From: Verrucomicrobiota bacterium
Lineage (GTDB): Bacteria; Verrucomicrobiota; Verrucomicrobiia; Chthoniobacterales; UBA10450
Reading direction: 5' to 3'
DNA length: 64,000 nt
Assembly (NCBI GenBank): GCA_003218375.1
Contig: QHNH01000016.1
Coordinates: forward strand, 245,009 to 309,008
Position 1 is the first letter of the stretch; every line of letters starts with the position of its first letter. Below the pieces are notes generated by a model. That model was given only the letters and a program-made list of their open reading frames with translations, was not told the origin of the DNA and made no database searches. The translations under genes were made by a program, and so were the position numbers. Positions 5,674-44,224 of this stretch are shown here, one piece after another.

Positions 5674-6711
5674 ATGGCTACAAAAACTGAAGAGAAAACT
5701 GCCGACGACAAAGTCACCGCCGCGCGCAACAAGAACCTCGATCTCGCGATCCAGCAGATCGCCAAAGATTATGGCGACGGCGCCATCATGCGACTTGGCG
5801 ACGAATCAATCGTCGACATCGACGTTATCCCCACCGGAAACATTTTGATCGACCGCGCCCTCGGCGTCGGTGGATTTCCGCGCGGACGCGTGGTGGAAGT
5901 TTATGGGCCGGAATCGTCCGGCAAAACGACGCTCACCCTCACGGTGATCGCGCAGGCCCAGAAGCGCGGCGGCCTGGCGGCGTTCATCGATGTCGAGCAT
6001 GCCCTCGACCCGCAATATGCTCGCCGGCTCGGGGTGAACCTGGACGATCTCCTGGTTTCCCAGCCGAGCTCCGGCGAAGAAGCGCTCCGCATTTGCGAAA
6101 CGCTCGTGCGCTCGAACGCGCTCGACGTGATCGTGCTCGATTCGGTCGCGGCCCTCGTCACGAAGGCGGAACTGGAAGGCGAGATCGGCGACGTTACGGT
6201 CGGCGCGCAGGCGCGGCTGATGAGCGCCGCCTTGCGCAAACTCACCGCGCTGATTTCCAAGGCGCGGACCTGTTGCGTTTTCACGAACCAGATCCGCGAA
6301 AAGATCGGCGTCATGTTCGGCAACCCGGAAACCACGCCCGGCGGCAAAGCGCTTAAATTCTACGCGAGCGTGCGCATCGATATTCGTCGCATTGGCGCGA
6401 TCAAACAGACGGACGGCGTGGTGACCGGCAATCGGACCCGGGTGAAGGTCGTGAAGAACAAAGTGGCGCCGCCGTTCACCGAAGCCGAGTTCGACATCAT
6501 GTATAACGAGGGAATTTCCTCGACCGGCGCGCTCCTCGACCTCGCGCTCGAGAAGCAAATCATCGAGAAGCGCGGTTCCTGGCTCAGCTACAAAGGCACG
6601 CAGCTCGCCCAGGGCCGCGACGCCGGCAAAGACGCGTTGAAAAACGATCCCGCGCTTTACGAAGAGATCGAGACCGCGGTCAAGGCGAAGCTCGACGAAG
6701 AAAAGAAGTAA
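5674..6711 (+). CDS. recA: Recombinase RecA
   Basis: A 345-residue RecA of normal length. The Walker A motif GPESSGKTT is at residues 78-86; the Walker B strand [13 protein letters not shown], the DNA-binding loop motifs ([34 protein letters not shown]) and the [11 protein letters not shown] segment are all present. RecA forms filaments on single-stranded DNA, drives strand exchange and triggers LexA self-cleavage. No SOS operator is obvious in the 67-bp spacer before ATG. An inverted repeat of 77 bp lies directly after the gene. Confidence 0.98.
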
Positions 6712-6719
6712 GCCTCTTG

Positions 6720-6796
6720 CTGTAGCGGCGGTCTATGACCGCGGGAAATTTCGCTGCGACACGTTCACATTCGGCGGTCATAGACCGCCGCTACAG
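6720..6796. repeat. Interspersed inverted repeat, CTGTAGC family, copy 1
   Basis: CTGTAGCGGCGGTCTATGAC at the left is the exact inverse complement of the right end (GTCATAGACCGCCGCTACAG); the perfect arm continues to about 23 bp around a 31-nt centre. It lies between recA and alaS. Other members at 9766, 11981, 14549, 28408 and 29717 share CTGTAGC...GCTACAG ends with different inner arms. Confidence 0.9.
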
Positions 6797-6819
6797 AGCG
6801 CGCTAACGTCATTCCGTCC

Positions 6820-9774
6820 ATGACCGCCGCCGAGATTCGTCAATCCTTTCTCGATTTCTTTCGCGAGAAACAGCACAGCGTCGTGCCCTCGGCTTCGCTC
6901 CTGCCGGATTCGCCGAACCTGCTTTTCACGAACGCCGGGATGAACCAGTTCGTCCCGATTTTTCTCGGGCAACAAAAACCGAGCTGGGATCCGCCGCGCG
7001 TGGCCGACACCCAGAAGTGCATCCGGGCCGGAGGCAAGCATAACGATCTCGATGACGTCGGTCTCGACACCTATCACCACACATTTTTCGAGATGCTCGG
7101 CAACTGGAGTTTCGGCGATTATTTCAAAAAGGAAGCGATCGAATGGGCGTGGGAACTCGTGGTCGGGCGCTGGAAACTTCCAGCGTCGCGGCTTTACGCG
7201 ACGGTTTACAAACCGGGCCCGGGCGAACCGAGCGAGTTCGACCAGGAAGCGCACGATTACTGGGCGACATTGTTCGAGAAGGCCGGGCTCGATCCCGCCG
7301 TCCATGTCGTCAACGGGAACAAGAAGGACAACTTTTGGATGATGGGCGATACCGGGCCGTGCGGCCCGTGCTCCGAATTACACGTCGATCTCACGCCGGC
7401 CGGCGACACGAAAGGCTCGCTCGTCAACGCCGGTGATGCTCGCTGCATCGAGATCTGGAACCTCGTGTTCATTCAGTTCAACGCGAACGCGGATGCGACG
7501 TTCTCGCCTTTGCCGCAGCGTCACGTCGATACCGGCCTGGGCCTGGAGCGCATCACGGCGATGATCCAAGGTACGAAGAATTTCACCGATTTCACTGGCA
7601 TCATCTCGAACTACGAGACCAATGTCTTCCGCCCCATCTTCGACGAATTGGAGAAGCTGAGCGGGAAAAAATACACCAGCACGTTGCCGGATTCTTCGGA
7701 TCGGGGAGCGCACGCGCCCTCGCGTGCCGGAGTCGGCGCCTCGCCGACGGCATCCGGCGAGGCGCCGGACGCAACACCCGAGGCGGGTGTGCTCCCCAGA
7801 GCAGAACAAGAGAAGATCGACATCGCCTTCCGTGTCATCGCCGATCACATCCGCACGTTGAGTTTCGCCATCGCGGATGGAATCCAGCCGAGCAACGAAG
7901 GACGCGGCTACGTCCTGCGCCGCATCCTGCGCCGCGCCGTACGTTATGGACGCACGCTTGGCTTTCAACAGCCGTTCTTCTACCTCCTGGTCGATGTCCT
8001 CGCCAACACGATGGGCGATGTTTTTCCGGAACTGCGGAACAAGCACAAGTTGATCAAGGATACACTGCGTCGGGAGGAAGAAGGATTTAACAAAACGCTG
8101 GATAAAGGAATTGAAGTCTTCACGACGGCTACCTTCTGTGTTCCTCCCGAAGACAATCGGAACTTGGGATCAATTACGGCGACAGGGGCTCAGGAAAACG
8201 CTGAGTTCATGACGACTCTGGAGGGGAGAATGATAACTGGTGAGTTCGCCTTCAAACTTTACGACACCTACGGCTTCCCTCTCGATCTGACTGAGCTAAT
8301 GGGTCGCGAGCGCGGCCTGTCTGTTGACGTGGCGGGGTTCGAGCGGCTGATGGATGAACAGCGTGAGCGCGCGCGCAAGAGCCAGAAGAAACAAGCGATC
8401 GAGCTCGAAGACGGGAAGCTGGATGTCGCGCCGACAAAGTTTCTTGGCTACGATTTTCCGGAGATGGAAGCGGTCGTCGAAGCAGTGTTGGCCGGTCGCG
8501 CGCCTAACGAGTTCAATATCGTTCTCGACCGAACGCCTTGTTACGCGGAGATGGGCGGTCAGGTTGGTGACCACGGACTGCTTCATGTTCCCGGGCATGA
8601 TCAAAGTGAGGTAGGCCAGCTCGCAATTTTCGACACGCGAAAACGCGGAGATGTTTTCGTTCATGTCAGCCGCCTGATGGAGGGGCGCGCTCCCGAACCG
8701 GGCGAAGCGGTCCGCGTATCGGTCGACGCGGCGCGACGAGATCCGATTCAGGGACATCATACTGTCACGCACGTGTTGCATTGGGCGCTGCACGAGAAAG
8801 TGAGCAAAGAAGCGGTGCAGAAGGGGAGTTACGTCGGGCCGGAGAAATTGACGTTCGATTTTTCGAGTGCGGCGCTGACGGGAGAACAGAAGCGCGAGGT
8901 CGAGAGATTGGTGAACGAGAAGATCGCGGAGAACGCGCCGGTTTCCTGGACGGAGATTCCGTATGCGGAAGCGAAGAAACGTTCGGATATCCAGCAGTTC
9001 TTCGGCGACAAATATGGCGAGAAAGTTCGCGTGGTGCAGATCGGCGGAGAACCGAAGCAGCTCAATGGATACTCGATGGAGCTGTGCGGCGGGACGCATG
9101 TGCGCGCCACGGGCGACATCGGATCGTTTCGGATCGTGAGGGAGGAAGCGATCGCAGCGGGGATTCGCCGGATCGAAGCGGTGGCGGGGGAGGCGGCGAA
9201 AAACTGGGCGCGGGAGGAAGCAGTGCGTCAGCAGGAGAAGTTTGGGGCCCTGGAACGGAAAAAGAGTGGCATCGCGGCGCTGCCGGCGTTCAGCGACAAC
9301 GCGGAGACGGCGACGATGCTGCAGCAAATCGACGCGCGCGCCGCTCATCTCGAAAAGCTCGAGGCCGAAGTGAGCGAGTGGCAAAAACAACAGTCGAAAG
9401 CTTCGGAAGCGGACGTGAAGAGCCGTGCCGCTGCGATCGCGAAAGAGCTTCGCGCGGCGCATGCAACGGACAAGGCGATCGTTGCTTCAGTGGCCGACGC
9501 CGACGGGAAACTGCTTCAGGGCGTGGTCGACGCGCTCAAATCCCATTTTGGCGGACCGATCTTTTTGGCCGGCGCCCTCGACGGACGCGTCGCCTTGGTC
9601 GCATCCGTTCCCAAAGAACTCACGACGCAATTCCAGGCGAATAAGCTGATCCAGGAAATCGCGCCCATCGTCGGCGGCAAAGGCGGCGGCCGGCCGGACA
9701 ATGCGCAGGGCGCAGGGAAAGACACGGCGAAAATCGACGCCGCTCTCGCCCGCGCGCGCGAGCTTCTTCTGTAG
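6820..9774 (+). CDS. alaS: Alanine-tRNA ligase AlaS, with an in-frame repeat insertion
   Basis: 984 residues, longer than the common 870-900. The class II catalytic domain is at the N-terminus (FTNAGMNQFVPIFLG; GDTGPCGPCSELH; DTGLGLERITAMIQG), followed by the tRNA-binding helical region (SNEGRGYVLRRILRRAVRYG), the editing domain with zinc-binding HHTVTHVLH (residue about 647) and LCGGTHV (about 755), and the C-Ala/DHHA1 oligomerisation domain ending GGKGGGRPDNAQGAG. Residues about 295-326 are encoded by a palindromic repeat and have a low-complexity Ala/Gly/Pro/Ser composition; flanking residues (KKYTSTLP, then AEQEKIDIAFRVIADHIRTL) align with normal AlaS. The TAG stop lies inside another repeat. 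The protein should remain active because the insertion is in a linker. Confidence 0.97.
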   Translation: MTAAEIRQSFLDFFREKQHSVVPSASLLPDSPNLLFTNAGMNQFVPIFLGQQKPSWDPPRVADTQKCIRAGGKHNDLDDVGLDTYHHTFFEMLGNWSFGDYFKKEAIEWAWELVVGRWKLPASRLYATVYKPGPGEPSEFDQEAHDYWATLFEKAGLDPAVHVVNGNKKDNFWMMGDTGPCGPCSELHVDLTPAGDTKGSLVNAGDARCIEIWNLVFIQFNANADATFSPLPQRHVDTGLGLERITAMIQGTKNFTDFTGIISNYETNVFRPIFDELEKLSGKKYTSTLPDSSDRGAHAPSRAGVGASPTASGEAPDATPEAGVLPRAEQEKIDIAFRVIADHIRTLSFAIADGIQPSNEGRGYVLRRILRRAVRYGRTLGFQQPFFYLLVDVLANTMGDVFPELRNKHKLIKDTLRREEEGFNKTLDKGIEVFTTATFCVPPEDNRNLGSITATGAQENAEFMTTLEGRMITGEFAFKLYDTYGFPLDLTELMGRERGLSVDVAGFERLMDEQRERARKSQKKQAIELEDGKLDVAPTKFLGYDFPEMEAVVEAVLAGRAPNEFNIVLDRTPCYAEMGGQVGDHGLLHVPGHDQSEVGQLAIFDTRKRGDVFVHVSRLMEGRAPEPGEAVRVSVDAARRDPIQGHHTVTHVLHWALHEKVSKEAVQKGSYVGPEKLTFDFSSAALTGEQKREVERLVNEKIAENAPVSWTEIPYAEAKKRSDIQQFFGDKYGEKVRVVQIGGEPKQLNGYSMELCGGTHVRATGDIGSFRIVREEAIAAGIRRIEAVAGEAAKNWAREEAVRQQEKFGALERKKSGIAALPAFSDNAETATMLQQIDARAAHLEKLEAEVSEWQKQQSKASEADVKSRAAAIAKELRAAHATDKAIVASVADADGKLLQGVVDALKSHFGGPIFLAGALDGRVALVASVPKELTTQFQANKLIQEIAPIVGGKGGGRPDNAQGAGKDTAKIDAALARARELLL
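7703..7797. repeat. Palindromic repeat inserted within the alaS coding sequence
   Basis: Ends GGGGAGCGCACGCGCC and (inverse) GGGGAGCACACCCGCC form a long imperfect stem; a second inner stem is CGGCGCCTCGCCGACGG against CCGGCGAGGCGCCG. The element is open in the alaS frame and adds about 32 residues between conserved blocks, so it must have added a multiple of three bases. Confidence 0.85.
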
Positions 9775-35336: not shown

Positions 35337-35807
35337 TTATTTTTCGGAAGTTCGCGGCGCGGGACTGGCCACGACGAGCCCCATGAGCAGGAAGGTGATC
35401 GCGGCCGAGAACAGGCAATAGCGGCAGAAGGCGTGGAGCAAGAATGCCTGGACGTAAAGCAACCAGAGCGTGACTGCAAAAAGCACGCCGGCCGTGAGCG
35501 CAAAAAATTTCCGGGCGCGCGCGTAATTGAAAACGGAAAAGGTCGCGCAGGTAAACGCGCAGAAGTATCCCGCCACGCCGAACGCAGCCACCGGGATTCC
35601 CGCCACTCTCGAATAAGCGCTGCCGAGCACCTCGAAACAACCGGCCTGTCCGCTACAGGCGGCGGTTTCCCCGGTTAACGCCAGCACCGTGAGATAAGTG
35701 GCATCCGCCAGGCCGAACAAACAGAACAACGCTGCCACCGAGTACAGAATCACGCCGCCGCGCGAGAGTGATCCCGGTTGCGTTTCGCGGGGCGCGGGCT
35801 TCGTCAT
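35337..35807 (-). CDS. Vitamin K epoxide reductase (VKOR) family protein
   Basis: 156 residues and four or five membrane helices. The loop cysteines are Cys51 and Cys57 (TAACSGQAGCFEV), and the quinone-proximal pair is Cys128/Cys131 (HAFCRYCLFSA). This is the bacterial DsbB substitute: it reoxidises a DsbA-like partner and passes electrons to quinone. The neighbouring gene, overlapping by 4 bp (ATGA), encodes just such a DsbA, so the two form a complete periplasmic disulfide-forming system. Ser/Ile in SRVAGIPVAAFG, conserved in the family, is present. Confidence 0.93.
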   Translation of the reverse strand: MTKPAPRETQPGSLSRGGVILYSVAALFCLFGLADATYLTVLALTGETAACSGQAGCFEVLGSAYSRVAGIPVAAFGVAGYFCAFTCATFSVFNYARARKFFALTAGVLFAVTLWLLYVQAFLLHAFCRYCLFSAAITFLLMGLVVASPAPRTSEK

Positions 35808-36454
35808 GGTTTCGGTTTCTCCTTGAGCGCGTTCTCGATCGCCTTGTGAAGGCCGGCTGGATTAATCTCCGCCGCGGGCAACGCGACGTTGTTCACGAAC
35901 AAGGTCGGCGTGCTCGTGACCCCGCGTGACGCGCCCAGTTTCTGATCGGCATCGACGCGGGAAGCGATCTCGGGATTGGCCAGGTCCTTTTTGAAGCGCT
36001 CAAGGTCGACGCCAGTCGTGCCCGCGTACGACTGGAGCAGCGAAGGCACGTCCGGCGCCTTCGACCAGATGGCTTGCTCCCGATAGAGAACATCGTGCAT
36101 TTCCCAAAAACGTCCCTGCATTCCGGCTGCTTCCGCCGCAAGCGAGGCTTCGCGAGCGTGAGCATGCATGGCGAGCGGAAAATGGTGGAAGATCACGAGC
36201 AACCGCGCGCCGTATTCTTCCTCGGCTTTCTCCAAAACGACTGCCATCCCCGCGCAGGGCGGACATTGGAAGTCGCCAAACTCCTCGACCGTCACCAGGG
36301 CCCCGGCTTTCCCGCGCACATGAGTTCCGGAGGCCGGCCCGCTTTTCGGCGCGGCCGGAAGTGCGGCGAGCTTGGCGCGATAAAGAGCAAAGCCGCTTCC
36401 GAATGTGGCCAGGGCCACGAACACGACAATCACATGGGGCAAGTACCGTCTCAT
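35804..36454 (-). CDS. DsbA-like membrane-anchored thiol oxidoreductase
   Basis: 216 residues from ATG 36454 (MRRYLPHVIVVFVALATFGS), where a single helix anchors it; the frame continues to 36607 but the additional residues are not protein-like. The active site is Cys64-Pro-Pro-Cys67 (VEEFGDFQCPPCAGM) in a thioredoxin fold with a helical insert; the cis-proline loop is SRGVTSTPTLFVN. It probably introduces disulfides into exported proteins and is reoxidised by the VKOR encoded immediately after. It shares the 173-bp region upstream with the divergent giant secreted protein gene. Confidence 0.92.
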   Translation of the reverse strand: MRRYLPHVIVVFVALATFGSGFALYRAKLAALPAAPKSGPASGTHVRGKAGALVTVEEFGDFQCPPCAGMAVVLEKAEEEYGARLLVIFHHFPLAMHAHAREASLAAEAAGMQGRFWEMHDVLYREQAIWSKAPDVPSLLQSYAGTTGVDLERFKKDLANPEIASRVDADQKLGASRGVTSTPTLFVNNVALPAAEINPAGLHKAIENALKEKPKP

Positions 36455-36627
36455 CGGAGAGCCTAAGGATAACGATTGCCGCCTGATTGCCAGAAATATT
36501 GTGGGGGGATCCGCTGCAAGAAAATAGTAACACGCGGGAACCAGCGCGAGCCGGGGGGACGATTCTAGGGGTAGCCGAGGCCGCGCTCGCGGCCCTCCGC
36601 TATTCACTCGTCACCGGAGAAAGTCCC

Positions 36628-39600
36628 ATGAAACCGTATTCCAAATCGTCTCGAAATCGTGGTTCCGTAATTCGACCCATCCTCGCCGCCTTGCTGATGC
36701 TCGGCGGCATCGCGCTCCTCGCCCGTGCGGGCGGCCTCGCGAATCAAACGGCGCCGGCATCCGCCAGCGCTTCCGGGTCGCCGCAAGCGCCACAGGCGCC
36801 CGCTGCGTCTCCCGGCCTGCCGCGTTTCTTCAATTACGCGTCTCCGCCAGGCATTGCCGATGATGTGGGCGAGCCCTCGATCGGTTGCAATTGGAAATCG
36901 GAGACGAGTTCTAGCAACAGCATGTTTAGCATTCCGAACGGAGGCCGAGTGATGCTCTTCGGCGGGTTTTCGCCCGACCTATACCGCGCCACCTTTGACG
37001 ATTGCTCTTCGCCGGCGAAGCCGAACTGGGAGGCAAAACCGCTTCTCCTCGCCTCCACTCCGCGAGCCGCGGGCGATCCGATCCTCTTCACCGATCACGA
37101 TACCGGTCGCACCTTTGTCTCTCAACTCGAGGGCCTGACGCCAGCCGGCAGCACGACGGACATTACCGATGACGATGGCGATAATTTCACGCCGAGTGAA
37201 GGCTCGAGCTTGCCGTCGGACATCGATCACCAGACTTTCGGAGGCGGAATATTTCATGCGGGCGGGGTCGGCCCGGTCACGGCCTATCCGAACGCGGTTT
37301 ATTACGCTTCGCAGAGTGTGTCCGACGCGCGTGCCGCGCAAAGCCAGGATGGCGGCCTCACTTTCGGGCCGGCTTTCCCGATGTACACGATCAACGACTG
37401 CGCCGGATTGCATGGCCATATCAAGGTCTCGCCGAAAGACGGCACCGCTTACGTGCCGAATGTCGGTTGCGGCGGTGCGGTTCCGTTTCACGAGACCGGC
37501 GCGAAACAGGCGGTGATCGTCTCGGAAGACAACGGGATCACCTGGAACATCCGGACGATTCCGGACTCGACCACCCATGGCAACGGCAGCGCGGATAACA
37601 CGATCATCGGCACCCGCGACCCATCCGTCTCGATCGACGCTGATGGGAACGTTTACTTTGTTTACCAGGCGGAAGATCGCCTGACCGGGATCGCCAACGG
37701 GACCGACAACGCCGGCGATACGCATCCGAAGGTCGCCGTTTCGCACGACAGGGGCCTGCACTGGGAGCCGAGCATTGATGTTGGCGCGACCGTGATCAAC
37801 GGCAATCCGATCAAAAACGCCACCTTTGTTACCGCTACCGCCGGCAGCAGCGGTCGCGCCGCGGTCGCCTTTTTCGGCACCGAAACCGGCGGCAACAACT
37901 GGTCTTGTGGCGAGGGCGATGACTGTTCATTAAGCGTCCAAGGAGTCAGCACTGGCATCAACGCGAGACCGCTCTTCACCGGCATTTGGTATCTCTACAT
38001 CTCGACCACGTTTGACGGGGGCAAGACCTGGACGACCCAAAACGTTACGCTCGGCGATCCGATCCAGCGCGGCGGCATTTGCGGCGGGAGCACCTGCCGG
38101 AACCTGCTCGATTTCATGGATATTCAGATCGATAAACAAGGCCGCATTCTCGTCGCGGGCGAGGACGGTTGCATCGGCGCCTGTGTCAACGGCGGACCGA
38201 ACTCTTTTACGGCCAAAGGATTCATCACCCGCCAATCGGGCGGCAAGCGAATGATCGCGCAGTTTGATCCGGTGGAGCCCATTCTTGCCGGCGCGCCTTT
38301 GCTTAGCGCCGCGATGGACAACGACAAGCTGACGGTGCAGCTCTCGTGGCCCACTCCGGACAACGGCGGGTCCGACATCACCGGTTACAAGGTCTACCGG
38401 CGCATCGGCGCTGGCAGTTTCACCCTGCTCGCCACCACCACGAGCACCAGCCTCACCGACATCACGTTCGATAAGAATCAAACCAACACGTATCACGTGA
38501 CCGCAGTCAACGGGATCGGCGAGGGACCGTTCTGCCACGACATCGTGCCAATCCTTCTCCCGCCGGGCGAGAACCTTTGCCTCCCGCCGGGCGTGAAATT
38601 GCTGACCGACCCGGCTGGAGATACCAGCGCCGCTCTCGGCTTTGTCAACTCGCCGGCCCCGCCGGGGGCCGATCTGCTCCGCTTGCAGGTCGTTCAGCCG
38701 TTTGCCACTGACGGCGTGGTTAAACTCTACTTCCTGCTTCAGACCGACGTGGGCCAATCGCCGCAGCCGCCAGCATCGGCCTGGTATGTCTCGATGAAGA
38801 CACCGGACGGCAAAGTGCACGGTCTCCACATGGCTTGGAAGGGCCCGACGCCGAGCTTCGAATCTTACATCGCTTCGGCTAACACGAGTGGCGGAACCGA
38901 TGGACGCTTTGTTGACCCGGCGTCAATCAAACCTCTCGAACCCGAGAGCAAGTACGAGCCGGAAAAAGGCCTCGTTACCCTGGTGGTGAAGGTGAGTGAA
39001 TTGGGTCTCACCTCTGGGGGCGTTATTTCCGGGTTCAATTCCGGGGTCACGCAAAGCACCGATGTCGCGAACATCGGCCGAGGAGCCACCACCACCTACG
39101 ATGAGATGCCGAACGGTCTTACCTACGCGGGTAGCCTCACCTTTGGCGGCAACGCGGTCTGCGCGCCGAATCTGCCGCCCACTGCCAAGTTCAGCGTTAC
39201 GCCCGATCACGGTAATCCGCCGCTGACCTCGAACTTTGATGGCTCCGCGTCCGTCGACCCGGATGCAGGCGATTCGATCGCATCCTACACCTTCAGCTTC
39301 GGCGATGGCTCGCCGGATGTGACGCAGTCGAGTCCTACCATTAGCCACACCTACAAACATGGCGGCGGGTTCTTTGCTACCCTCACGGTGAAGGATTCTC
39401 ATGGGTTGGTTAGCGCGAATACCGCTACGGCCGAGATCGAGGTCGCCGCGCAGATATTGAATCTATCAACTCGCATGCGCGTCCAGCCCGGAGACAACGC
39501 GCTCATCGGCGGCTTCATCATCCGCGGAAGCGAACAAAAGAAAGTCATCCTCCGCGGGATCGGGCCCAGCCTCAACGTTCCCGGCAAGCTCGACGACCCG

Positions 39601-40218
39601 GTGATCCAGTTGTTTAACGGCTCGGGCGTCAACATTGCCGGAAACGACGATTGGAAGACCGACCAGCAGAACGTCGAGTCGACTGGCCTTGCCCCGACGA
39701 ACGACCGCGAGTCCGCCATCGTCATCACGCTCGATCCCGGCGCTTACACCTTGGTGATGCGCGGGAAGAACAACAGCAGCGGCATCGGCCTTGTGGAAGT
39801 GTATGACATCGGTCTCGCGGCCAATGCGCGGCTCGCGAACGTCAGCACCCGCGGCTTCGTCGGCACCGGTGACAACATTCTCATCGGCGGTTTCTTTGCC
39901 GGACCCCAGACCGCCGCCGTGACCGGAGTGGTCTTCCGCGCCCTCGGCCCGTCGCTCTCGAATTTCGGCGTCCCGCAACCGATGCAGGATCCGACCATCG
40001 AGATTCATAACGGCAACGGCGACGTGATCGCGTCGAACGACGACTGGCAATCGAACCAGAAAACCGAGATCCAAGGGACGGGATTGGCGCCGAGCGATCC
40101 ACGCGAGTCCGCCATCCTCATGCGCAACTTCGACCCCGGCCCCTACACGGCGATCGTCCGCGGCAAGAACAACACGACTGGTATAGGTCTCGTGGAGATT
40201 TACGACGTGCAGCAGTAG
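36628..40218 (+). CDS. Giant secreted Asp-box (sialidase-like) protein with FnIII, PKD and paired C-terminal domains
   Basis: 1196 residues from ATG 36628 (GGAGAAAGTCCC before it; an earlier in-frame start at 36487 is unlikely). After a signal anchor (IRPILAALLMLGGIALLARA) comes a beta-propeller with Asp-box motifs SQDGGLTF, SEDNGITW, SHDRGLHW and TFDGGKTW. Next are a fibronectin type III domain (about residues 560-650, NGGSDITGYKVYRRIGAGSF), a lectin-like segment, a PKD domain (about 850-940, DGSASVDPDAGDSIASYTFS) and two homologous C-terminal domains (about 942-1063 and 1067-1196) with GDN-LIGGF, RGIGPSL/RALGPSL, NDDW and GLAP-DRESAI signatures. A sialidase-type catalytic triad is not evident, so it may bind rather than cleave glycans. 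Extracellular or surface-bound. Confidence 0.88.
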   Translation: MKPYSKSSRNRGSVIRPILAALLMLGGIALLARAGGLANQTAPASASASGSPQAPQAPAASPGLPRFFNYASPPGIADDVGEPSIGCNWKSETSSSNSMFSIPNGGRVMLFGGFSPDLYRATFDDCSSPAKPNWEAKPLLLASTPRAAGDPILFTDHDTGRTFVSQLEGLTPAGSTTDITDDDGDNFTPSEGSSLPSDIDHQTFGGGIFHAGGVGPVTAYPNAVYYASQSVSDARAAQSQDGGLTFGPAFPMYTINDCAGLHGHIKVSPKDGTAYVPNVGCGGAVPFHETGAKQAVIVSEDNGITWNIRTIPDSTTHGNGSADNTIIGTRDPSVSIDADGNVYFVYQAEDRLTGIANGTDNAGDTHPKVAVSHDRGLHWEPSIDVGATVINGNPIKNATFVTATAGSSGRAAVAFFGTETGGNNWSCGEGDDCSLSVQGVSTGINARPLFTGIWYLYISTTFDGGKTWTTQNVTLGDPIQRGGICGGSTCRNLLDFMDIQIDKQGRILVAGEDGCIGACVNGGPNSFTAKGFITRQSGGKRMIAQFDPVEPILAGAPLLSAAMDNDKLTVQLSWPTPDNGGSDITGYKVYRRIGAGSFTLLATTTSTSLTDITFDKNQTNTYHVTAVNGIGEGPFCHDIVPILLPPGENLCLPPGVKLLTDPAGDTSAALGFVNSPAPPGADLLRLQVVQPFATDGVVKLYFLLQTDVGQSPQPPASAWYVSMKTPDGKVHGLHMAWKGPTPSFESYIASANTSGGTDGRFVDPASIKPLEPESKYEPEKGLVTLVVKVSELGLTSGGVISGFNSGVTQSTDVANIGRGATTTYDEMPNGLTYAGSLTFGGNAVCAPNLPPTAKFSVTPDHGNPPLTSNFDGSASVDPDAGDSIASYTFSFGDGSPDVTQSSPTISHTYKHGGGFFATLTVKDSHGLVSANTATAEIEVAAQILNLSTRMRVQPGDNALIGGFIIRGSEQKKVILRGIGPSLNVPGKLDDPVIQLFNGSGVNIAGNDDWKTDQQNVESTGLAPTNDRESAIVITLDPGAYTLVMRGKNNSSGIGLVEVYDIGLAANARLANVSTRGFVGTGDNILIGGFFAGPQTAAVTGVVFRALGPSLSNFGVPQPMQDPTIEIHNGNGDVIASNDDWQSNQKTEIQGTGLAPSDPRESAILMRNFDPGPYTAIVRGKNNTTGIGLVEIYDVQQ

Positions 40219-40374
40219 CTAGTCCTTCGCTGAAAGGTAAACAGAAATGGATTCGCAGCCCGCCCGACCGCGGCGCAATCCCAGGCGAGGCCTGCGAAAT
40301 ACGCGGAAAAAAGTGGTAGACGAAAAAATGTTCGCCTTTAAAGACGAACCTTCGCTTAATTCTCGTTAGGTCTC

Positions 40375-40764
40375 ATGCGACGCTTGATCGTACGGAGGTT
40401 GCTTTTCCTTGCGGCGTTCGCATTCATCGGCGGTCTATACTTTTGGGGGACCATTGACGCGCATCAGGTCAATCTGCGTTACATCCTTTGGAAGCATCAC
40501 GCTTGGCCCCACCAGCGTTTCATGCTGCCATTCCTGAGTGTTGATGGCGAGTTCACCATGTCGCTGCGTGGTAAGACGAAGGCAGAGATTCAGCGGTACT
40601 TCCCGTTACTGATCCGCCCAGAGCTCGCGATCACTGAATACCAGCGAACCTACAGCCAAGACATGATATGGCGCCACCGCGATTACCTTTGGATCGGCGA
40701 TTCGGACTACGCAATCCAATTTGAGGATGGAAAAGTTGTATATGTTGGGCCGATTAAGGGATAG
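40375..40764 (+). CDS. Small membrane-anchored hypothetical protein
   Basis: 129 residues: an N-terminal hydrophobic anchor (RRLLFLAAFAFIGGLYFWG) and a soluble rest with a beta-rich end (YLWIGDSDYAIQFEDGKVVYVGPIKG). The middle has RGKTKAEIQRYFPLL. No family is recognised. Length, start and composition are consistent with a real gene; AGG lies 7 bp before the ATG. It sits between the two giant secreted-protein genes, with 156 bp and 223 bp spacers. Confidence 0.6.
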   Translation: MRRLIVRRLLFLAAFAFIGGLYFWGTIDAHQVNLRYILWKHHAWPHQRFMLPFLSVDGEFTMSLRGKTKAEIQRYFPLLIRPELAITEYQRTYSQDMIWRHRDYLWIGDSDYAIQFEDGKVVYVGPIKG

Positions 40765-40987
40765 ACCTAACCAAGCGCTGGAGCGAACCGCCGTCCGTCG
40801 TGCATCTTCGTCTCTTGTGACCAGAACCCGTTCCCGGCGATTCATGCGCGCTCTCGGCGGCGGTCGCTCATCTTTTTTTCGTTAGACCGAAAGATTCCCG
40901 ATGCGAAACCGGGCTCGACATGAGTTGATCGTGCTTTGATACTTTTCCCGAGAGGGAAAGTGGATCGGACCAGGGGAAGGAACTGTG

Positions 40988-43900
40988 ATGCAGAGAAATT
41001 CCAGGAGCGAATCGGGGACCTTTCATCCGCGCATCTTTCTCGCGTTTGTTTTCTGTCTCAGCGCGGCGCTTCTGGCGGTCTTTAGTTTTGCGGGGCCTTC
41101 ATCGAAACTTCCGTCCGCCCCTGCGGCGCCCACGGCCATACCGACTTTCGGCCATCCCATCATTAGCGGAATCGGTGGGACCGGTTTCGAACAATCGATC
41201 CGGACCGACCCGACGGATCCGAACCGGATTTACACGAGCGCGCCTGGGACTGCTTCCGCCGATACGAGCTGGATCTGGCATTCGCTGGACGGCGGGAAGA
41301 CTTTCAAGTGGGTCGTGGGTGCGGCCGCCTTCGAGGGAAAGGCTACGACCTGTCATGGCGGCGGCGACACGGAGATCGGCGTCGATTCCGCGGGCCACCT
41401 CTATTTCAATGACCTGACGCTGGCGAACTTCAGCACCGCGCGCTCGGATGATTTCGGTGCCACGTTCACTTGCAGCAACACCGGCGTTCCCGATACCGCA
41501 GTCGATCGCCAATGGTATGCGATCGATGGCGATCCGACCAATGGCGGCAACCTCTATCTCGTGAACGACGAGATCGGGCCGGGCGGCGCGATGTGCGGCA
41601 GCAGCGTAGGCAACAACGTCCTCGTCATGTATCGCTCGCCACTTGCCGGACTCGGCGCGACGGCGGGAATCCAGTTCGGTCCGGCAAACAAAATCACGGC
41701 CGTCGGAAGCTGCGATGAAGCGATCATGGGGAACAACGAAGTGAGCCCGATAGCCACGACGTTGGGACAGCCGAATGGCACCGGCGGCTTCGCCACGTTG
41801 CCGGCGCCGGTGAAACACATCTTCGTCGTTCACGACAACGCGCAGCTGAACAAGATCATGGTCGGCCGTTGTTTCCCGGTCGCTTTCGGTGCGCCGGTGG
41901 CGAACGTCAGCGATCCGAGCGGCCTCAATTGCACGGACATTCCGGTGGCAGATCTCGGCGCGAATGCAAAGACGGGCGGCGATTTTCCAACCCTGGCGAT
42001 CGATAAGGCCGGCAATCTTTACGCGGTCTGGGAACAGGCGCCACTCACCGCCGGTGTGATTTCCGGCGATGTCGTCCTGAAGTATTCCTATTCAACTGAT
42101 CAGGGAAACAGCTGGTCGGCGCCGATCGAGATCAACACTTCGGGTTCGTCCGCCGGCACGTTGCACCAGAACGTGTTCGCCTGGATCAATGCCGGCGACG
42201 AGGGACGCGTGAACATCGTCTGGTATGGAACGCCGGGCCAGGCGACGCCCGGCGGCGCGAACGGGCCGGACGATTGCAACGATTGCGCCTGGAGCTTGTG
42301 GATGGTGCAATCCCTCAACGCGCACGCTGCCGCGCCCACCTTCACCGCGCCGATTCTCGCCAGCGAGCATCATATCCACAAGGGCACCGTCCAGTCGCTC
42401 ATCGGCGGGCAGAACCAACTTTCCAGCCGCTCGTTAGGCGATTATCTCCAGGTGCGGATGGGACCTTTCGGCGAAGCGCAGATAGCTTACGCCGATTCGA
42501 ACAACATCGTCGGCAGCGCTGCCGGTCACGCGATGTACGTCCGGCAAAATGGCGGCGACGGCCTGCTCGGGTCGTTGTCGCCGGTGAATCTTCCCGGCCT
42601 CACGGCGTTCAATGGTGTCACCGATCCATCCGGCGACGGGAAGTATGAAGTGAATGGAAGCAGCAGCGCCAGCATGCCGCAGCTAGATATCCTGAGCTCG
42701 AGCATCACCAAAGTTACTTCGTCGCCGTGTTCCGCGGCCGATCCTTGTTACCGGATCGCAATGCAATTGAATAGTCTCAGCCTCGCGCCAGCCGCGCAGG
42801 ATCCCGATCCGGACCTGGTCTGGCTTACGCAATGGTTCGTTCCGTCGACGAGCGACGCCAATGGCGGCAAGAATTTCCATGCTTACGCGGAATCGACCAA
42901 CGGCGGTGCGTTACAATGTTTCGTGGGCGAAAATGCCGTGCAACTGGTAGGCGGCGGTGGGGTCATGACTTATCCGGGAGCGACCACGTTGCCGGCGGCA
43001 AATTGCCAGTCCATCCCGGGCGCGAACGGGACGATTACGATTTATGTGCCGTTATCGGTCGTAACTGAGGCGAACCCGATCGACAACAAGCTGCACGAAG
43101 TAACCGCGAGCACGATGACGCTGGCGCAACCGGCCAATAGCACGCCGTCCTTTGGCGGCATTGGTGGTTCGTTGTTTAACCTCATCGACGTCGCCCAGGG
43201 CTACACCTTTGATCCGACCTTAACACCTTCTCCTACTCCCACCGCGACGGCTACAGCTACGGCCAGCCCTATAGCTACCGCTACCGCGACAGCTAGTCCT
43301 ACAGCTACTCCTGCATCCACACCTACAGCTACCGCTACAGCCACTCCGACTGGCACACCTACCGCTACTCCGACGCCCGTTGACCTTCAGCTCTTGAACA
43401 TCTCCGGGCGCGTCGTAGCTCAAACCGGCGACAAGGTCGGTATCGCCGGCTTTATCGTGAAGGGCTCGGGGTTCAAACGCTTCATCGCTCGCGCCATCGG
43501 GCCGTCGATGACCGTCAATGGCCAGCCTGTCCCGGGCCGCTTGATGGATCCGGTCTTGGAATTGCACGATAGCAATGGCCAGACGATCACGAATGACAAT
43601 TGGCGCACCGGCGGCCAACAGACGGAGATTCAGCAAAGCGGTCTCGCGCCAAGCGACGACCGCGAGGCCGCGATCATTCGCACAGTGCCCGCCGGAAATT
43701 TCACCGCGATCATTACCGGAGCGAATAACACCACCGGCATTGGGTTGATCGAAGTTTATGATCTCGGCACAGTCAGCTCGGCTGAGGAGGAAGCGAGGAT
43801 CGAACGACCGGACGCCCCCGACGCCGCCGCCAGCGAGCTCGGGAATCTCTCCGTCCGCGCCGATGTTCAGACAGACGACAACATCCTGATCGACGGCATC

Positions 43901-44224
43901 ATTCTCCGTGGCGGGAATCCGAAACGCGTCTTGTTCCGCGCCCTCGGCCCCTCGGTGAAATCGAATGGCAATCCGGTCCCCGGCACCTTGCAGAATCCGA
44001 TGCTTGAGCTGCGGAACGCGAACGGCGTGCAATTGCAGTCGAACGATGACTGGCAGCAAGCGCCCAACGCCTCCGAGATCCAGGCCACGGGTCTCGCCCC
44101 GTCCGATCCCAAGGAATCCGCCATCCTGATGAGCCTAACCCCCGGCAACTACACCTCACTCGTCCGCGGCGTGAACCGCACCACCGGCATCGCCTTGGCC
44201 GAAGCCTACAAGCTCGATAATTAG
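40988..44224 (+). CDS. Second giant secreted Asp-box protein with low-complexity linker and paired C-terminal domains
   Basis: 1078 residues from ATG 40988 (GGGGAAGGAACT upstream; a GTG one codon earlier is an alternative). Signal segment IFLAFVFCLSAALLAVFSFA. The body has Asp-box motifs (SLDGGKTFKW, STDQGNSWSAP) and several paired cysteines, as in secreted proteins. A Thr/Ala/Pro/Ser linker (nt about 43218-43381) precedes two copies of the same C-terminal domain found in the 36.6-kb protein (LLNISGRVVAQTGDKVGIAG...; LGNLSVRADVQTDDNILIDG...). The two proteins share N-terminal layout and C-termini but the middle is different. No catalytic residues can be assigned. Probably exported, with the paired domains in sorting, anchoring or assembly. 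Confidence 0.87.
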   Translation: MQRNSRSESGTFHPRIFLAFVFCLSAALLAVFSFAGPSSKLPSAPAAPTAIPTFGHPIISGIGGTGFEQSIRTDPTDPNRIYTSAPGTASADTSWIWHSLDGGKTFKWVVGAAAFEGKATTCHGGGDTEIGVDSAGHLYFNDLTLANFSTARSDDFGATFTCSNTGVPDTAVDRQWYAIDGDPTNGGNLYLVNDEIGPGGAMCGSSVGNNVLVMYRSPLAGLGATAGIQFGPANKITAVGSCDEAIMGNNEVSPIATTLGQPNGTGGFATLPAPVKHIFVVHDNAQLNKIMVGRCFPVAFGAPVANVSDPSGLNCTDIPVADLGANAKTGGDFPTLAIDKAGNLYAVWEQAPLTAGVISGDVVLKYSYSTDQGNSWSAPIEINTSGSSAGTLHQNVFAWINAGDEGRVNIVWYGTPGQATPGGANGPDDCNDCAWSLWMVQSLNAHAAAPTFTAPILASEHHIHKGTVQSLIGGQNQLSSRSLGDYLQVRMGPFGEAQIAYADSNNIVGSAAGHAMYVRQNGGDGLLGSLSPVNLPGLTAFNGVTDPSGDGKYEVNGSSSASMPQLDILSSSITKVTSSPCSAADPCYRIAMQLNSLSLAPAAQDPDPDLVWLTQWFVPSTSDANGGKNFHAYAESTNGGALQCFVGENAVQLVGGGGVMTYPGATTLPAANCQSIPGANGTITIYVPLSVVTEANPIDNKLHEVTASTMTLAQPANSTPSFGGIGGSLFNLIDVAQGYTFDPTLTPSPTPTATATATASPIATATATASPTATPASTPTATATATPTGTPTATPTPVDLQLLNISGRVVAQTGDKVGIAGFIVKGSGFKRFIARAIGPSMTVNGQPVPGRLMDPVLELHDSNGQTITNDNWRTGGQQTEIQQSGLAPSDDREAAIIRTVPAGNFTAIITGANNTTGIGLIEVYDLGTVSSAEEEARIERPDAPDAAASELGNLSVRADVQTDDNILIDGIILRGGNPKRVLFRALGPSVKSNGNPVPGTLQNPMLELRNANGVQLQSNDDWQQAPNASEIQATGLAPSDPKESAILMSLTPGNYTSLVRGVNRTTGIALAEAYKLDN
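43218..43381 (+). repeat. Low-complexity Thr/Ala/Pro/Ser-coding repeat
   Basis: Imperfect tandem repeats of CTACAGCTACCGCTAC-like hexamers encode (TA)n, (TP)n and SPTAT runs inside the 40988-44224 gene. It forms a flexible linker between the propeller part and the paired C-terminal domains. Confidence 0.85.

Follow-up and report, generated by a model that had tools for sequence, protein, structure and literature searches.

Background

Among the described systems with which the element treated here can be compared, PEP-CTERM sorting was inferred by Haft et al. from an extreme C-terminal position, many copies per genome or none, diverse cargo with signal peptides, a Thr/Ser/Asn-rich composition and a sporadic distribution (PMC1569441). 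The type A C-terminal domain (CTD) of the type IX secretion system (T9SS) is a β-sandwich at the protein C-terminus (PMC4804311) and serves as a tag on many surface proteins. PPC (pre-peptidase C-terminal) domains (PF04151), ColG s3a–s3b and Tk-SP share a common β-sandwich fold and are C-terminal in secreted proteins, and NF038127 (FDP_fam, the DVUA0089 family) is a sequence family whose name carries no mechanism. Here we analyse the A–B pair, two copies of one ~125-residue domain that end two large proteins encoded in a 64,000-nt stretch of a Verrucomicrobiota genome (hereafter the window; contig QHNH01000016.1 of assembly GCA_003218375.1, with coordinates converted from our contig C42, in which the window is C42:245009-309008).

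The pair shares the genomic behaviour of PEP-CTERM point by point, whereas it is a folded unit of 250 residues rather than a 24-residue motif with a membrane helix, and its distribution does not follow exosortase. Compared with the T9SS CTD, it belongs to another fold family by sequence and is tandem, and SprA was not seen (a search that had no positive control). Its domain exceeds the listed solved PPC domains by ~30 residues and, unlike PPC, is nearly always arranged as A then B, in ~60 proteins per genome that are mostly non-peptidases. Searches of open-licence literature listed no description of the A–B pair. The domain is not of a wholly new kind; the pair is a known fold in a new variant, employed as a C-terminal module that many proteins have in common. 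We give about even chances to the reading that the two copies act together as a single C-terminal address and anchor, by which exported proteins dock at the surface of the cell or in its matrix.

A paired C-terminal domain in many proteins of one genome

The four window copies, two at the C-terminus of each protein as the first-pass annotation had described them, were recovered by alignment, by profile search and as DNA repeats, the fourfold register also being seen in the DNA (repeat finder, D1–D3). Their alignment has 133 columns, of which 34 are invariant; relative to the first copy, the other three show 50, 50 and 45% identity. This similarity is well above chance, the four-copy profile (A1) matching the copies with E values of 1e-59 to 3e-65, although it was made from them. 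In both genes the stop codon lies 1–2 residues past the last copy. The middles of the two proteins are unlike, as noted at first reading: Pfam finds BNR-like, fn3 and PKD regions in gene 1 and only a weak BNR repeat in gene 2. The term ‘giant’ does not hold, the proteins being large at ~1,200 and ~1,080 residues.

The four copies, correct in themselves, understated the extent of the family. Searching the window's own genome (G000, 3.96 Mb, Chthoniobacterales-like Verrucomicrobiota) with the four-copy profile gave 127 matches at E≤1e-3, distributed over 67 places as 58 exact pairs, 8 singles and 1 broken triple. The sequences of all 67 were read. For the count of terminal position 57 of the 67 places were kept, and ten were set aside: seven as broken, fragmentary or at a contig end (L009, L119, L131, L137, L149, L163 and L170) and three because their frame runs through the retrieved sequence without a stop (L115 and L143, both cut by contig ends, and L124). 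In all 57 kept genes, comprising 54 pairs and 3 single terminal copies, the last copy ends 0–5 residues before the stop codon (0 residues in 11, 1 in 30, 2 in 7, 3 in 7 and 5 in 2). The linker between A and B has 6 residues in 41 of the 54 pairs, and that of gene 2 is the longest among them (23 residues).

Locus L124 (G000 C10:242510-243265) departs from this arrangement, its pair standing N-terminally, directly after the signal peptide and before CHRD and DUF1800 domains. The same order occurs in locus L033 from a named genome (open reading frame (ORF) 5878-8751), and G008, G028 and G051 contain matches with the 21-nt spacing of L124 in frames of ~940–970 aa. These sequences suggest that an N-terminal pair on CHRD–DUF1800 proteins is a conserved exception.

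Six pair-bearing genes and one fragment form a tandem array on one strand over ~21 kb (G000 C47:143894-164563). Copies containing an in-frame stop codon were observed at G000 C22:89190, C51:77981 and C42:64968, which suggests gene decay within the family.

Two copy types conserved across genomes

An independent set of 79 loci was obtained from named genomes by scanning genome contigs; 78 carry titles of Verrucomicrobia, Spartobacteria or Chthoniobacterales and one that of Acidobacteriaceae. Among the 128 ORFs of these loci that match a profile of the own-genome copies, 122 have two copies, five have one and one has four. The last copy ends 0–4 residues before the stop in 120 of the 123 ORFs that contain a stop, the other three extending 14, 292 and 665 residues beyond it.

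The first and second copies are distinct types, A and B. Type profiles were built from 55 A and 55 B own-genome copies, and matches covering fewer than 100 profile positions were dropped. They assigned 121 of 123 first copies to A and 120 of 124 second copies to B, mostly in other genomes, although the test set includes the own L124 pair, one of the 55 pairs used for training. Of five single copies four were typed as B, including that of L009, which is single only because the contig begins there, and one as A (L148). A FastTree tree shows 7 changes of the A/B label, whereas 200 shuffles never gave fewer than 29. In addition, the A–A and B–B similarity matrices are correlated (r 0.53, reached by none of 2000 permutations), indicating that the halves travel together. 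Mean identity is 52% for A–A, 51% for B–B and 53% for A–B within one protein; with values so modest, A and B differ at a limited set of positions, the A-specific ones including the D of VYDL and K32. Polar positions conserved in both halves are N, R, R, S, N, W, E, T, E and Y.

Cargo proteins and signs of export

Cargo parts were compiled for 57 proteins, of which 56 were scanned against Pfam (L128 was omitted for its length). The 56 contain 41 Pfam families at E≤1e-5, none of them in more than six proteins, including PKD, Calx-beta, propeller repeats, NHL, beta-helix, subtilase, pectinesterase, GDSL lipase, cyclophilin and FG-GAP. A signal-peptide heuristic was passed by 53 of 55 pair-bearing proteins and by 114 of 232 neighbouring control ORFs, the rule being lenient. 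Lys and Arg together make up 4.5% of the cargo, against 13.6% in the window ORFs, whereas Thr (11.7%; window ORFs 4.7%) and Asn (6.4%; window ORFs 2.8%) are enriched; this background probably includes spurious Arg-rich ORFs. Haft et al. give a cargo composition pattern like this one for PEP-CTERM and LPXTG proteins (PMC1569441). A Thr/Pro-rich linker precedes many pairs, and at least one ORF, that of L037, consists of little besides a leader and the pair. Cysteine is nearly absent from the pairs (0.0% of 13,987 residues; 3 of 30,935 in a second count).

Fold and nearest relatives

AlphaFold2 predicted the pair, from 114 doublets, with a predicted local distance difference test (pLDDT) of 95.0 and a predicted template modelling score (pTM) of 0.89, and the B copy, from 109 single copies, with values of 95.5 and 0.89. 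A β-sandwich is thus predicted with confidence, and it has the PPC jelly-roll fold. The best match of the predicted B copy was the jelly roll at the C-terminal end of the subtilisin Tk-SP (Z 10.6, root mean square deviation (rmsd) 3.0, 97 residues aligned; second row Z 10.4), followed by ColG s3b (Z 9.0, rmsd 2.5, 91 aligned) and the PPC domain of Bacillus anthracis collagenase (Z 8.9, rmsd 2.5, 93 aligned). Most other folds score lower than these, but the GOLD domain of TMED1 (Z 8.6) and PliG (Z 8.5) are almost level with the PPC matches, which leaves the fold class certain and the precise family less certain. T9SS CTD structures are not among the 50 matches listed in either fold search, which excludes nothing. 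The viral fold library gave only long alignments of high rmsd or single-domain sandwiches.

By sequence, the domain appears to be a remote relative of NCBIfam NF038127, its nearest sequence family. This model matches 84 of the 114 doublets at E≤0.01 (best 3.5e-15) and 30 of the 109 single copies. Against its curated cut-off of 29 bits, the gene 1 protein (P0001) scores 29.6 bits and its doublet 41.2; P0002 has no row, and most single own-genome copies score below the cut-off, which 5 of 19 listed places exceed. The best stretch in the window copies covers approximately positions 49–112 of the 150-position model. At the same threshold of E≤0.01, PF04151 (PPC) matches 8 of the 114 doublets (best 6.7e-5), with no row for the window copies up to E 5, and PF23623 (galactose-binding) matches 18. 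The first-pass annotation could name no family. No Pfam model calls the window copies, but its statement has to be amended by the remote kinship to NF038127 and the PPC fold. Among solved structures no convincing relative was found by sequence, the SAKe-design and WD40 profile hits having no passing stretch of their own.

These relatives bear on two other readings of the pair. It could be an ordinary ligand-binding module, for carbohydrate or protein as in collagenase PPC, that takes secreted enzymes to environmental substrates: the collagen-binding domains of ColG and ColH and the B. anthracis collagenase PPC domain are among the best fold matches, and ColG likewise carries a C-terminal tandem (5iku). 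However, most cargo proteins are of non-hydrolase kinds (propellers, PKD, FG-GAP, Calx-beta, cyclophilin), and whereas binding modules usually vary in copy number and position, those of the pair barely do; we consider this reading improbable. The other takes the pair for a stabilizing C-terminal cap, or for a module spread mainly by gene duplication with no shared address function. Its closest fold match, the Tk-SP jelly roll, contributes to stability, and the tandem arrays (C47, 143.9–164.6 kb) together with the stop-broken copies point to fast turnover. Duplication alone, however, explains neither the same ending on 41 Pfam families nor the distinctness of A and B across genomes, and we hold this explanation to be improbable as well.

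Distribution

Domain-bearing genomes numbered 8 of 57 in the order sample, 44 of 83 in the family and 14 of 288 in the phylum sample. In the family scan all eight genomes of the own genus (g1) had at least 51 matches each, with 140–293 first-look candidates; the domain was present in all members of genera g178, g180 and g183 and in none of g3, g4 and g184, most genera having either many copies or none. Another family within the class (f17), suspected to be Opitutaceae, has pairs too, mostly at the C-terminus but with some exceptions. The plasmid search gave no match to the domain.

In the phylum of the ‘Acidobacteriaceae’ record, matches were found in 2 of 247 genomes. One is that record itself (G413, with L061; Acidobacteriaceae palsa_188), whose 15 matches all lie on high-numbered contigs and may represent Verrucomicrobiota contamination of a metagenome-assembled genome (MAG). 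In the other (G472) a single pair lies on contig C1 and is followed by 41 further residues. The supposition that the domain is specific to its phylum was thus nearly right, with 78 of the 79 named loci on its side and these two genomes, one perhaps contaminated, against it; within the phylum, however, only 14 of the 288 genomes sampled have the domain.

Partner machinery and the proposed role of the pair

Candidate machinery was searched for with the models PF09721, TIGR04189, PF07589 and PF03934. A reading suggested by the position of the pair is that of a C-terminal export signal for a dedicated outer-membrane secretion system, comparable to the T9SS CTD, with recognition of the folded β-sandwich in the periplasm, passage through the outer membrane and possible cleavage of the tag. 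The extreme C-terminus, the β-sandwich shared with the T9SS CTD, the dozens of diverse cargo proteins per genome and the sporadic distribution would all fit. On the other side, T9SS SprA was matched in none of 33 genomes, a negative that lacks a positive control, as the control genomes gave no match either; TIGR04183, the T9SS type A sorting domain, matches only 1 of the 114 doublets at E≤0.01 (5.6e-5); and the DUF1800 proteins carry the pair N-terminally, while a few others have 41–292 residues beyond it. We therefore regard such a signal as unlikely, the N-terminal pair on the DUF1800 proteins making docking by a folded module more plausible than a signal bound to cross a membrane in fixed order.

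The preferred reading, a docking address, can be set out as follows. A protein with a signal peptide, judged from its N-terminal sequence, would be exported to the periplasm. Its end would fold as two different PPC-like β-sandwiches, first A and then B, with a short linker between them, predicted to form a single compact unit and often preceded by a Thr/Pro-rich stalk. On the outer surface the folded pair would then dock to a single partner shared by all these proteins, a candidate being an outer-membrane receptor or a glycan of the surface or exopolysaccharide, and some sixty unrelated proteins would as a result be displayed at the same place. C-terminal sorting signals as a class sit at the very end of numerous unrelated exported proteins, as the pair does here. 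The role in sorting, anchoring or assembly proposed at first reading is in part supported on sequence grounds, the fixed C-terminal position, diverse cargo, signal-like N-termini and sporadic distribution being consistent with it. The docking reading draws in addition on the constant copy number, the linker length, the two copy types, the Lys/Arg-poor, Thr- and Asn-rich cargo and the fold.

Several observations weigh against a docking address. PPC-fold domains elsewhere bind substrates, as do the collagen-binding domains of ColG; much the same picture would be expected of a plain binding module. DVUA0089, with which NF038127 was founded, figures among the genes of an exopolysaccharide/biofilm regulon (PMC4641369), which is a hint in favour of docking, though only a hint, as the link of this family to exopolysaccharide is remote. 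Presence is not strictly all-or-none, as genus g185 is mixed (a few members with 1–21 matches, most with none) and some MAGs have 1–4 matches; the lenient signal-peptide rule and the Arg-rich composition background also reduce the weight of the export signs. No partner gene emerged, no neighbour recurring in more than 4 of the 79 loci. Exosortase (PF09721) was present in all 33 of 33 genomes, whether or not they carry the pair, and was rejected as a specific partner for this reason. Nor does the T2SSK model track the module, with no match in 8 of 8 pair-bearing Chthoniobacterales-like genomes tested, while 8 of 9 pair-bearing f17 genomes match it weakly, a result that says little because the control matched unrelated genomes.

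A more far-reaching possibility is that the pair is the cargo tag of an undescribed Verrucomicrobiota surface-sorting system, in which a folded two-domain ticket would be read by a dedicated outer-membrane receptor or translocon for ~60 proteins per cell (own genome) to perhaps 100 or more, alongside PEP-CTERM/exosortase or replacing it; we advance this only tentatively. Four genomes of the own genus (G000, G028, G037 and G051) have 4, 0, 0 and 2 PEP-CTERM sites by PF07589 and 1–4 exosortases each, so that either PF07589 misses sites there or the exosortase substrates differ. PF07589 is known to miss sites in Verrucomicrobium (PMC1569441). Replacement of PEP-CTERM by the pair was rejected since other pair-bearing genomes have up to 56 PF07589 sites and the relation is not cleanly inverse. 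The pairs end in their last β-strand (e.g. VEVYNLQ); no PEP motif, membrane helix or basic cluster was found at these C-termini, and PF07589 is not among the families matching the 114 doublets at E≤0.01.

If the docking address is correct, a fixed heterotypic pair ending about sixty unrelated exported proteins, all encoded by one genome of 4 Mb, would represent a new address tag in a soil phylum that is widespread and poorly cultivated, and thousands of unnamed Verrucomicrobiota proteins could be annotated as ‘surface-displayed’. Because closely related genera have dozens of copies or none, clean phyletic profiling is possible.

Features of the window and its surroundings

Coordinates of the two genes and their parts are listed below; the start ATG of gene 1 was picked by reading the sequence.

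Table 1. Parts of the two pair-bearing genes, in window coordinates
Feature	Position	Strand	Description or support
Gene 1	36628..40218	+	signal-like N-terminus, BNR-like region, fn3, PKD, A–B pair
BNR_2-like stretch, gene 1	37327..37722	+	PF13088, E 7.1e-5, 22.7 bits (below the Pfam cut-off of 31.4)
Fibronectin type III domain, gene 1	38317..38529	+	PF00041, E 5.1e-6
PKD domain, gene 1	39172..39444	+	PF18911, E 9.5e-15; adjoins the pair upstream
Copy A, gene 1	39448..39810	+	alignment, profile, AlphaFold
Copy B, gene 1	39829..40212	+	profile, AlphaFold; 1 residue before the stop codon
Gene 2	40988..44224	+	signal-like N-terminus, weak BNR-repeat-like middle, Thr/Pro-rich linker, A–B pair
Thr/Pro/Ala-rich linker before the pair, gene 2	43217..43387 (ends approximate)	+	read from the translation
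Copy A, gene 2	43388..43765	+	alignment, profile
Copy B, gene 2	43835..44215	+	profile; 2 residues before the stop codon

Between the two genes lies a separate ORF of 129 aa (40375-40764). A third pair-bearing gene is found nearby, its pair at G000 C42:310820-311599 in a frame of 1345 aa, ~2 kb past the right end of the window. Immediately upstream of gene 1, two ORFs occupy positions 35337-36607 on the minus strand; by their sequences they look like proteins of the vitamin K epoxide reductase type and the DsbA type, next to pairs that are almost without cysteine.

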